A DNA stretch of 64,000 nucleotides from Lachnospiraceae bacterium AC2031. GTDB lineage: Bacteria > Bacillota > Clostridia > Lachnospirales > Lachnospiraceae. The stretch's first letter is position 1. The number at the start of each line of letters is the position of its first letter. Shown here piece by piece: positions 46,846 to 50,247 of this stretch. The notes under the pieces are model-generated. The model was not told the DNA's origin. It saw nothing but the letters and a program-made list of their open reading frames with translations, and did no database searches. Location of the stretch: contig JIAB01000001.1 of assembly GCA_000687975.1 (NCBI GenBank), positions 2,580,001 to 2,644,000 of the forward strand, read 5' to 3'. The position numbers and the translations under genes are program-made.

Positions 46846-47757
46846 ATGGCATTAGATATAAAAACCGTGTCCTTCGGCGGATATGATAAAAATGCAACTG
46901 AGACTTATGTTTCAGAGCAGAAAAAGAAGTATGAGGACGAGATTGCTAAGCTTAAGGATGATGCAACAAAGCTTAGTGAAGCTGTTAAGGGACTTCAGCA
47001 GATGCGTGAAGCTAACATGACAGAGTCTAAGAGTACAATAGATAATCTAAAGACAGTAAATGAGCAGCTTCAGAGTGAAGTTGAACAGTTAAAAGCTGAT
47101 CTTGATGCATATAAGACAAGAGAGATGGAGTCTGCTTCTAGATACGAATCTATCTCAAGAACACTTCTTTCAGCTAGAGAGAGTGCTGATGCACTTACTC
47201 AGAAGACTACAGCTGATTGTGAGGCTAAGATGGCTGAGACAACAGCTCAGTGCAAGAGCATGATCGAGGAGACAAATGCTCGTTGTGATCAGCTTAAGTC
47301 AGCTACAGAGCAGGAGTGTGATCGCCTTCTTTCACAGACACAGAGCAGCTGTCAGGAGAAGCAGGAGACTACATACGCTGAGTGTGAAAGTCTTAAGAGA
47401 AAGACTAAGGAAGAGACAGATCAGCTTAGCTATGAGACAGAAACAAGATGTGAGACTCTGAAGACTCAGACAGAAGCAGCTTGTGAAAATCTGAAGAACC
47501 AGACAGAGGCAGCTTGCGAGAGACTTAAGGAAGATACTATAGCTGAGTGTGAGAGACAGAAGGCTGAAGCAAGAGAAGAAATTCGTCAGAATAGAACTAT
47601 CGTAAAGAGAGAATTTGATTCTATCGGTGGATTTATGGCACAGCTTCAGGCTGCTCTTTCAGATGTTAATCTTGCTGTTGATGAAACTAAGAAGATCACA
47701 GACAGTGCTTTTTCAGATTTAAGCAGCAGTTCATCAATTAATGATGCAAACGATTAA
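46846..47757 (+). CDS. DivIVA-like protein with cysteine hendecad coiled coil
   Basis: A 303-residue cytoplasmic protein. The N-terminus (LDIKTVSFGGYDKNATETYV) resembles the DivIVA membrane-targeting segment, followed by a heptad coiled coil (about 22-110). From residue 125 to 235 there is an 11-residue repeat of the form C-E-x-L-K-x-x-T-x-A-x. Cys stands at 125, 136, 147, 158, 169, 180, 202, 213, 224 and 235, with Thr at 191. Cys, Leu (+3) and Thr (+7) would line the core of a hendecad coiled coil. A Ser-rich tail follows. It lies upstream of a sensor and mreB. A role in cell shape or division is inference; I know of no characterised counterpart. Confidence 0.75.
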   Translation: MALDIKTVSFGGYDKNATETYVSEQKKKYEDEIAKLKDDATKLSEAVKGLQQMREANMTESKSTIDNLKTVNEQLQSEVEQLKADLDAYKTREMESASRYESISRTLLSARESADALTQKTTADCEAKMAETTAQCKSMIEETNARCDQLKSATEQECDRLLSQTQSSCQEKQETTYAECESLKRKTKEETDQLSYETETRCETLKTQTEAACENLKNQTEAACERLKEDTIAECERQKAEAREEIRQNRTIVKREFDSIGGFMAQLQAALSDVNLAVDETKKITDSAFSDLSSSSSINDAND

Positions 47758-47862: not shown

Positions 47863-49203
47863 TTGAAGGAAAGCATAAGAAATAGTCAGATATCAAAAGA
47901 TTTTCTTATGAAGAACCATGTCGATGAGATAGTTAACAGCTTTGCTGGTGTAAGCGAGCTTTACAGCGTTGTCGTCGATATTAATGGTCATACTCTTGTT
48001 GAGCCTACAGGTCCTGCCACATATTTGGGTGAGTTTCACGAGATAATACTTAATCCAAAGTATTCAAAGCTGTATGCAGACACAGTAAATTGTCTTATAG
48101 ATTCCAAACAGGCAATGTATTCTGAGATAGATGATGGGAATCCTGATAGCCGTTTTGCGGCTGCACCAATCTTTGTAAAAGGAACCTTTTATGCAACCTG
48201 GATTCTCTATGCCCATAATAAATCTCAGAATCAGAGATTGTTTAAGACTTTTGATCATATGTCCAGCGTTGCAAAGTCTTTATCTGATGTTATTACCAGG
48301 CTTTATGAAGATTCTATTATTGCAGGTGAAGAAGAAGAAATAAAGACTGAATATGTGTTCGAGCATGGTGCCAAGGACATTATGAACAATGCTCTTGATG
48401 CTATATACAGTGGCGACAGGTCAAGTATATTTAAGTTATATGATCAGGTGGGTGAACTCCTTGATGTTGATTATATGGTTTATTATGCTATAGATACAGA
48501 TAGACCAGGATATATGAAACTTGTTGATTATTGGGCTAAAAATGGCAAAGGCAAAGAAGCTGAATCAAAATTTGCCTGGGATAGTGACCACTATGATATA
48601 GAGATTCAGAATAAGATTAAGAAAGACTGCCTCGTTGTTGATAAGAGCAACATGACCAACAAGATGAGAGTTGAGGTCTTTCAGGGAAATGTTAAAGCTA
48701 TCATGGTTTTTCCTGTGTATATTCGTGATCAGTATCAGGGGCGCTTGATATTTATTGAGAATACAAAAGAAAGAGTTTGGACAGAGTGTGAGATAGCATT
48801 TGGCAGGGAGCTTACCAGCATGCTGGCAAGAGCTACTGCAATTCAGATGCGCTTATATAGAGGCAATAAGAATATAAAGCTATTCACTGAGCTTTTTGAT
48901 ATTCTTCCGGAATACATATTTGTTCGCAGAAGAATAGATGGAACAGTAATTTATATGAATTCAGCCCTTAAGAATAAATTGGGTTCTGATATGATTGGTC
49001 AGAATAGTTACAGACTTATTCCTAATACGAGAGAAGGGCTGGAAGATATTCGAACAACACAGGCTCTTCCTTTAGGAGTCGATAAAGAATTATTTACCAG
49101 ATATATTGATATGTTAGGTGCTAACTTTAAGGTTGCGCAGTTTAACATGAGATGGAAAAATCTGGAAAAGGTGGAGATTCTTATTCTTACACCAGAATCA
49201 TAG
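47863..49203 (+). CDS. Output-less sensory protein (PocR/GAF/PAS-like)
   Basis: A 446-residue soluble protein with only sensory-looking parts. Residues 25-140 (LYSVVVDINGHTLVEPTG to FVKGTFYATWILY) resemble the PocR-type ligand domain. Residues 190-340 (IFKLYDQVGELLDVDYMVYYAID, AIMVFPVYIRDQYQGRLIFIENT) resemble a GAF domain. Residues 345-440 (LFDILPEYIFVRRRIDGTVIYMNSALKNKLG) look like a PAS domain. No GGDEF, kinase or DNA-binding output is visible. It starts with TTG after AGGAGGG. Position between the coiled-coil gene and mreB suggests a link to cell shape, but this is inference. Confidence 0.65.
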   Translation: MKESIRNSQISKDFLMKNHVDEIVNSFAGVSELYSVVVDINGHTLVEPTGPATYLGEFHEIILNPKYSKLYADTVNCLIDSKQAMYSEIDDGNPDSRFAAAPIFVKGTFYATWILYAHNKSQNQRLFKTFDHMSSVAKSLSDVITRLYEDSIIAGEEEEIKTEYVFEHGAKDIMNNALDAIYSGDRSSIFKLYDQVGELLDVDYMVYYAIDTDRPGYMKLVDYWAKNGKGKEAESKFAWDSDHYDIEIQNKIKKDCLVVDKSNMTNKMRVEVFQGNVKAIMVFPVYIRDQYQGRLIFIENTKERVWTECEIAFGRELTSMLARATAIQMRLYRGNKNIKLFTELFDILPEYIFVRRRIDGTVIYMNSALKNKLGSDMIGQNSYRLIPNTREGLEDIRTTQALPLGVDKELFTRYIDMLGANFKVAQFNMRWKNLEKVEILILTPES

Positions 49204-49251: not shown

Positions 49252-50247
49252 ATGGCAAATCTTGATATTGGAATTGACTTAGGTACATCAAACATCCTTG
49301 TGTATGTACGTGGCAGAGGAGTTGTACTTAGTGAGCCAACAGTTATAGCCTATGATAAGGATTCAGAGAAGATTGTTGAGATAGGTGAAGAAGCAAGACT
49401 TATGCTTGGAAGAACTCCTGGCAATCTTATAGCAGTAAGACCACTGAAGCACGGTGTTATCTCTGATTATACAAAGGCAGAGGAGATGATCAAGTACTTT
49501 ATCAAGAAAGCTATTGGTCGTAACTTCTTTGGAAGACGTCCTAGAATCTCGATATGTGTTCCATCAGGAGCTACAGAGGTTGAGAAACGTGCTGTTGAGA
49601 CGGCTACTTATAATGCTGGTGCAAGATTCGTTAATATAGTTGAAGAACCTATAGCAGCTGCCATAGGAGCAGGAATCGATATTGTGAGACCTGTAGGTAA
49701 TATGATCGTTGATATCGGTGGTGGTACCACAGATATAGCAGTAATATCAATGGGTGGAGCAGTTGTAACTTCTTCTATTAAGGTTGCCGGTGATGATTTC
49801 GATGATGCAATCATCAAATATGTTCGAAAGAGACACAGCCTTCTTATCGGTGAAAGAAGTGCTGAGGATGTTAAGATAAACATTGGTACAAGCTACAAGA
49901 GACCTGAGAATATTTCTATGGATGTTCGTGGTCGTAATCTTGTTACAGGACTTCCTAAGACTGTTACAATCACTTCAGATGAGACAGAAGAAGCTCTGAG
50001 AGAACCAACAGGTCAGGTTGTTGAAGCAATCCATGCAGTGCTTGAAAAGACACCTCCTGAACTTGCTGCAGATATAGCAGATAGAGGCATTGTACTCACA
50101 GGTGGTGGTTCGCTGCTTCATGGACTTGAGCAGTTAGTGGAAGAAAAGACTGGAATTACAACTGTTACAGCAGAGGATCCAATGTCTGTTGTTGCAGTAG
50201 GTACAGGTAAGTATATAGATTACCTGGCTGAACAAGATTTATTATAG
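49252..50247 (+). CDS. mreB: Rod shape-determining protein MreB
   Basis: MreB/Mbl-type actin homologue, 331 residues. Phosphate-1 motif GIDLGTSNI, VVLSEPTVIAYD, connect segment VCVPSGATEVEKRAV, phosphate-2 VDIGGGTTDIAVIS, and the adenosine segment VLTGGGSLLHGLEQ are intact. It polymerises under the membrane and guides the elongation machinery. mreC and mreD, its usual neighbours, are absent here; recD2 follows. GAGAGGAA precedes the ATG. Confidence 0.95.
   Translation: MANLDIGIDLGTSNILVYVRGRGVVLSEPTVIAYDKDSEKIVEIGEEARLMLGRTPGNLIAVRPLKHGVISDYTKAEEMIKYFIKKAIGRNFFGRRPRISICVPSGATEVEKRAVETATYNAGARFVNIVEEPIAAAIGAGIDIVRPVGNMIVDIGGGTTDIAVISMGGAVVTSSIKVAGDDFDDAIIKYVRKRHSLLIGERSAEDVKINIGTSYKRPENISMDVRGRNLVTGLPKTVTITSDETEEALREPTGQVVEAIHAVLEKTPPELAADIADRGIVLTGGGSLLHGLEQLVEEKTGITTVTAEDPMSVVAVGTGKYIDYLAEQDLL

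Follow-up and report, generated by a model that had tools for sequence, protein, structure and literature searches.

Gene Q and its neighbourhood

The window, i.e., the whole stretch of 64,000 nucleotides of Lachnospiraceae bacterium AC2031 that was analysed, carries at positions 46846..47757 of the forward strand a gene of 303 amino acids, here given the working label Q, which is read as a DivIVA-like rod with a cysteine hendecad ladder. Its open reading frame, coordinates and strand, set down in an earlier note, proved correct. An N-terminal DivIVA/GpsB-like motif, FGGYDK, falls within residues 1–25 (46846..46920, forward strand) and is delineated by invariant residues and profile matches, and a heptad stalk spans residues 15–113 (46888..47184, forward), as judged from a hydrophobic period of 3.54 and the small number of indels. 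The Cys-Leu-Thr hendecad ladder occupies residues 125–245 (47218..47580, forward), where eleven slots hold ten cysteines, and is defined by register, conservation, codons and period. Behind it lies a helix of residues 251–290 (47596..47715, forward), recognised from its conservation and its hydrophobic period of 3.51.

The cysteines of Q stand at residues 125, 136, 147, 158, 169, 180, 202, 213, 224 and 235 and slot 191 is occupied by Thr, exactly as had been reported; the protein contains no other cysteine. The described tendency of Leu to stand at +3 and Thr at +7 was likewise recovered (eight of the 13 units sampled and 11 of 12, respectively), the unit being C-x2-L-x3-T-x3 with a Lys-rich position +4. 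A chance origin of the ladder was rejected: when residues 96–260 were shuffled 20,000 times, ten cysteines never fell into one residue class at any period from 5 to 20. The eleven 33-base units share pairwise identities of 0.27–0.85 and are thus too diverged for the ladder of Q to be a recent DNA duplication.

Downstream of Q lies a PocR/PAS-type sensor-like gene of 446 amino acids (47863..49203, forward), which is assigned from PocR and PAS matches below threshold, as are its matches to every model tried, followed by an mreB/mbl-type actin homologue (49252..50247, forward) that scores 451.9 bits against MreB_Mbl. The proximity of Q to mreB, part of the original observation, is therefore that of a second gene downstream, in the order Q, sensor, mreB. 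A scan of named genome records yielded 106 relatives of Q, the best 80 of which, at 79 loci, constitute the set of 79 homologues used here. In these best 80 of 106, a homologue of the sensor was present at 79 of 79 loci and directly downstream of Q, by a loose test, at 78, and the full order was kept at 75 of 79, the other four contigs ending 416–1586 bases after Q; the comparison of neighbours across relatives that had been suggested thus reveals a conserved mreB neighbourhood. The sensor-like protein evolves fast, with 17–80% identity across loci; those of L229 and L230 are about 800 amino acids long and contain PAS domains that score over the cut-off. Other genes near the locus are presumably recD2, comF, ddl, metG and glmS, and glmM was seen in only 13 of the 79 fetched stretches (best 80 of 106). 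The same order beside mreB is found in Ser-type and mixed relatives (genomes G216 and G149), with genes further on that we take to be flagellar.

As far as BLAST at E 1e-4 can tell, Q does not accompany mreB throughout the bacterial family, and that idea was rejected. Among 40 stretches upstream of mreB, taken from 119 other genomes of the family and including three that were ended early by contig ends, a Q-like gene was present only in G149 (BLAST E 1e-4), and the sensor was found in G091, G171 and G149.

Conservation and spread of the cysteine ladder

A match to Q was found in 58 of the 61 genomes of the genus, AC2031 counted, and in all 31 genus genomes with a completeness of 90% or more and a contamination of no more than 5%. 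Across the bacterial family, 15 of 298 genomes gave a match (E up to 1e-3), some of which are other ladder-bearing proteins. The records of the 79 loci (best 80 of 106) are titled Lachnospiraceae, Eubacterium, Clostridium, Clostridiales, Clostridia, Eubacteriales and, in one metagenome-assembled genome, Bacteroides sp.; the Q relatives titled Eubacterium include E. ruminantium ATCC 17233 and FB3002.

The cysteines of these proteins are held closely in register: 771 of the 802 in the 79 homologues (best 80 of 106) lie in the main register of their own protein, and the 77 Cys-type homologues among the best 80 of 106 have 6 to 13 in-register cysteines each. Where a slot of these 77 (best 80 of 106) lacks cysteine, its residue is T, A, V, L, M or I, with Ser in just two cases, a tally over related rows that are not independent; this is the pattern expected for a buried core position. 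In a separate set of 34 homologues, of which 29 belong to the genus and five come from outside it or are not yet listed, mean identity to Q is 0.91 at the Cys slots, 0.66 over residues 114–250 and 0.74 over residues 1–113, making the Cys slots the most constrained class in the ladder, and 28 of the 34 have Thr at slot 191. The codons are more telling still. In Q and 22 close homologues drawn from the 79, 2382 comparisons of Cys codons showed 37.9% synonymous and 0.6% non-synonymous differences; non-synonymous pairs made up 11–37% at the ten remaining positions of the unit (18.0% for Leu, 11.3% for Thr). Since the Cys codons differ synonymously but hardly non-synonymously, the thiol appears to be under purifying selection, and we read its conservation as selection on the thiol itself beyond small size.

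Homologues that keep the 11-residue period without the cysteines, named in the earlier note as evidence that would count against its reading, do exist in part: L129, L130 and L038 have Ser in the slots with the period kept. The period thus outlives the cysteines, and the presence of Ser-type orthologues in the mreB locus means that the locus can do without thiols. In L042 the ladder is mostly lost. A tree built without the ladder separates L129, L130, L038 and L042 from 66 Cys-type rows by one branch (100/97), although its root is arbitrary, the branch leading to L042 is very long and a long-branch warning was issued; 12 of 82 rows, in which the cutting motif is absent, were left out of the tree set, and L129 equals L130 in the parts used.

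Cysteine ladders also occur on other proteins of the same bacterial family, some of them beside signal peptidases. A second group, labelled KEL-SR after its N-terminus, has ladders of at least four cysteines in nine of the 28 members listed, which are only those BLAST matches that carry the motif G[SNTDA]I[AM]. Five ladder genes for coiled-coil proteins of the KEL-SR group (L220, L221, L222 and L226; four stretches from three genomes) adjoin a type I signal peptidase gene or lie one gene from it, and the large protein beyond in L220 and L221 has the domain CHAP, or CHAP, Cna_B and SpaA. The recurrence of the ladder on a second protein group marks it as a module rather than a curiosity. Several single cases deserve mention. 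L039:1435-3033 (reverse strand) encodes a 533-residue KEL-SR protein with 19 cysteines in one 11-residue register, one stretch of which reads X. By eye, L046:1426-2343 (reverse strand) joins a DivIVA-looking start (KGYRPDEV) to a KEL-SR part and a seven-Cys ladder, and the ladder protein of L044 has a DivIVA-looking start of its own; DivIVA models did not match either start, and L046 had no match to any family model. Also by eye, the KEL-SR relatives L144, L146, L148 and L154 have Ala-type instead of Cys-type hendecads. A mobile or phage origin was rejected: the 209-residue ladder of L039 gave no phage match and one plasmid match, at 18.9% identity, to open reading frames without a ladder.

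At E up to 1e-8, the ladder profile matched 11 of 298 family genomes and two of 398 phylum genomes; both of the latter are family members, AC2031 itself and one other, and no ladder was thus found outside the family in the 398-genome phylum sample. The profile misses short ladders, such as the six in-register cysteines of L043 in G107, which is not among the 11. Antisense reading frames of E/K-rich repeats (L040, L042, L045, L049 and L158) yield spurious ladders of 4 to 6 in-register cysteines, so only sense-strand proteins were used, and they are a caution for frame-blind scans. A putative gene of 81 amino acids, L160:1507-1749 (reverse strand), consists of near-identical 11-residue units with six in-register cysteines and a different composition. 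The ladder is real, kept by selection and, in the genomes sampled, confined to one bacterial family.

Coiled-coil geometry and the N-terminus

The hendecad coiled coil proposed at the outset is supported by two features of the letters. In the stalk, hydrophobic residues recur with a period of 3.54, which rises to 3.66 in the ladder and returns to 3.51 behind it, and all 82 ladder indels relative to Q are of 11, 22 or 33 residues, counted over sequences and so not independent events. The period and the indels together identify a heptad stalk that gives way to a hendecad coil, and the Q family has both the 3-4-4 apolar spacing and the 11-residue insertions by which hendecads are recognised. In residues 16–113, only three indels, of 3, 3 and 7 residues, were counted (79 homologues, best 80 of 106). 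Anchor spacing was measurable in 65 of 80 rows, 15 being left out, and one of the 65 has the anchor shifted by 3 (63 and 148 versus the usual 66 and 145). AlphaFold2, run on 18 sequences as a single chain, predicts helices at residues 15–177 and 181–288 with a mean pLDDT of 84.6 and a pTM of 0.43.

In the idealised geometry of a 3-4-4 hendecad, Thr is central, and Cys and Leu lie about 33 degrees to each side. The suggestion that Cys, Leu and Thr stack along the core does not hold in the form given: in this geometry Thr is a central knob flanked by Cys and Leu. An idealised parallel dimer would bring the C-betas of facing cysteines to 5.5–6.2 Angstrom, and with an idealised rise the Cys layers would be 16.5 Angstrom apart in a ladder about 165 Angstrom long. 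The only PDB sequence found by the ladder profile up to E 10 is 6h9l (E 0.18; E 5e-4 with the whole-protein profile), an uncharacterised protein that is presumably a relative of CCDC90/DUF1640. Its hendecad stalk has I-L-T at +0, +3 and +7 and, like Q, a 3-4-4 unit with a central Thr; however, Ile stands where Q has Cys, and the match is weak.

A likeness of the N-terminus to DivIVA is indicated at the level of profiles, though it is weaker than had been claimed. K6, T7, F10, G11, G12, Y13, D14 and K15 are invariant in 18 Q-family sequences, and Y13 is nearly invariant in another set of 18 N-termini (alignments A1 and A3 comprise 18 chosen sequences each, and A2 nine). A profile of the 18 N-termini retrieves GpsB first from the PDB (E 8e-4) and DivIVA (2wuj) at E 6e-3, with Hsp70 chains, taken for chance matches, in between. 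Against AC2031's own DivIVA, a separate gene at genome position 202238-202624, the profile gives an hhalign probability of 72.8% (E 3e-5). The NCBIfam GpsB model is matched by 18 of 18 N-termini and the DivIVA-domain model by 14 of 18 (E up to 0.1). Against this, the Pfam DivIVA model PF05103 scores 24.1 bits in Q, the cut-off being 28, and covers residues 65–156 rather than the N-terminus; in a Ser-type orthologue, TIGR03544 reaches 21.1 bits (cut-off 22) and the Wag31 model 54.2 bits (cut-off 260), and none of the curated Pfam and NCBIfam DivIVA models attains its cut-off in Q or the relatives tested. The strict motif GY[DN]xx[QE]V[DN] (PMC9858780) is absent from Q (GYDKNATE) and from the family consensus (GYDKKAVE); a relaxed form is present in the family, in which GYD and mostly V are kept and the flanking positions differ. 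The motif of Q is followed by a heptad coiled coil with its predicted helix from residue 15. Given profile likeness yet scores below curated cut-offs, the N-terminus of Q is probably homologous to the DivIVA-like superfamily, membership in which is not thereby proven.

Possible role of the rod and comparison with known systems

The reading we favour, with confidence evenly divided for and against, is that Q is a FilP-like/DivIVA-like cytoplasmic scaffold rod with a thiol-bearing core that works with the MreB/Mbl elongation machinery. The FGGYDK motif and the heptad stalk would form a parallel homodimer able to sit at the membrane, and beyond the stalk a long, nearly straight hendecad rod would extend, with a core of Cys (a), Leu (d) and Thr (h) where other DivIVA-like hendecads have an Ala-rich one. 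Thr would serve as the small central knob-to-knob residue with Cys and Leu packed on either side, and at intervals of about 16.5 Angstrom a Cys would face the other chain. Most likely, the thiol would be kept because it lets identical chains dimerise tightly and in register in the reducing cytoplasm of an anaerobe, and reversible chemistry on the paired thiols may be possible. Synteny with mreB is compatible with a partnership rather than proof of interaction. A wider proposal, offered tentatively, is that Lachnospiraceae possess a thiol-lined class of cytoskeletal rods of their own, built into two or more protein frames. Cys pairs stacked along the core, switchable through disulfide, persulfide or metal, may then make MreB-driven cell shape and, on the second frame, the export of surface proteins responsive to redox or metal state.

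The paired cysteines could instead be joined across the two chains as disulfides or persulfides, giving a redox-controlled zipper by which exposure to oxygen would stiffen or lock the rod, which we consider doubtful. Lachnospiraceae are anaerobes, and all ladder holders found in the family and phylum profile scans come from records of this family; the codon evidence for a thiol beyond small size, the adjoining sensor-like gene and the closeness of facing cysteines in the idealised parallel dimer are likewise consistent with such a zipper. However, the modelled C-beta distance is longer than the usual disulfide spacing of about 3.4–4.6 Angstrom, T, A, V, L or M can replace Cys at individual slots, relatives have Ser, and the cytoplasm is reducing. 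It is also unlikely, in our judgement, that Cys is the lineage-typical filler of a small core slot in a generic hendecad rod with no special role for the thiol. The Ser of L129, L130 and L038, the Ala-type hendecads of some KEL-SR relatives and the small or apolar substitutes found at individual slots would suit a filler, but Cys is kept more strictly than the Leu and Thr of the same unit, and nearly all homologue cysteines hold the register (771 of 802 in the best 80 of 106).

Binding of Cu(I), Zn, Cd, Ni or an iron-sulfur cluster by the Cys layers, in the manner of thiolate-lined bundles, appears improbable. Cu(I) binding is reported for the Cys-lined four-helix bundles of Csp3 (PMC5171941) and Ni binding for three cysteines of a designed trimer (PMC10299331), and the thiol conservation seen in the codon comparison would suit a metal ligand. 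Nevertheless, the spread of ladder length from 6 to 13 (77 Cys-type homologues, best 80 of 106), with single losses, argues against one fixed metal site, a dimer would offer two thiols per layer with the next layer 16.5 Angstrom away, and neither of the two constant neighbours, the sensor and mreB, is a metal gene. It is highly improbable that the 11-mers build, in place of a coiled coil, an amphipathic helix of the apolipoprotein type that binds lipid: an Apolipoprotein model scores 21.5 bits (cut-off 90) and apolipoprotein chains are among the weak PDB matches, but the C-T-L apolar stripe spans only about 65 degrees in idealised geometry, +4 is Lys-rich, and the periods before and after the ladder are heptad-like.

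As the scaffold rod favoured here, Q would be a candidate, so far uncharacterised, for a partner of MreB in these rumen anaerobes. Its in-register cysteines along a core of about 165 Angstrom provide a natural test of how the chemistry of a coiled-coil core determines which partner a rod selects and how the rod behaves towards redox. In agreement with the earlier note, no described protein of this kind was found in the openly licensed PubMed Central papers searched. Csp copper storage proteins resemble Q in turning many cysteines into a helical core (PMC5171941, PMC10155185); they are four-helix bundles, whereas Q is predicted by AlphaFold2 as a near-continuous single helix with C-x10-C spacing, and no Csp model is among the Pfam and NCBIfam matches of Q up to E 0.1. 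The DivIVA and GpsB proteins of Bacillota show a tentative N-terminal profile similarity to Q, which differs in its scores below curated cut-offs and in its long Cys hendecad rod.

The closest parallel in architecture is provided by actinobacterial FilP and Scy, members of the DivIVA-like superfamily in which the motif is followed by heptads and then by extended hendecads (Martinez-Goikoetxea and Lupas 2023, PMC9858780). Each hendecad repeat directs one of its core residues straight at the counterpart in the other chain, which is why dimers need small residues there, particularly Ala (PMC9858780). Q shares with FilP/Scy the GYD-type N-terminal motif, the heptad stalk, the extended hendecad rod (period 3.66) and small core residues. 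At the motif, the Q family has GGYD and usually A-V-E where FilP/Scy have E-V-D, and none of the 79 loci (best 80 of 106) carries an actinobacterial title. Whereas FilP and Scy are actinobacterial and have an Ala-rich core, Q belongs to Lachnospiraceae, has a Cys-Leu-Thr core and lies in the neighbourhood of mreB.
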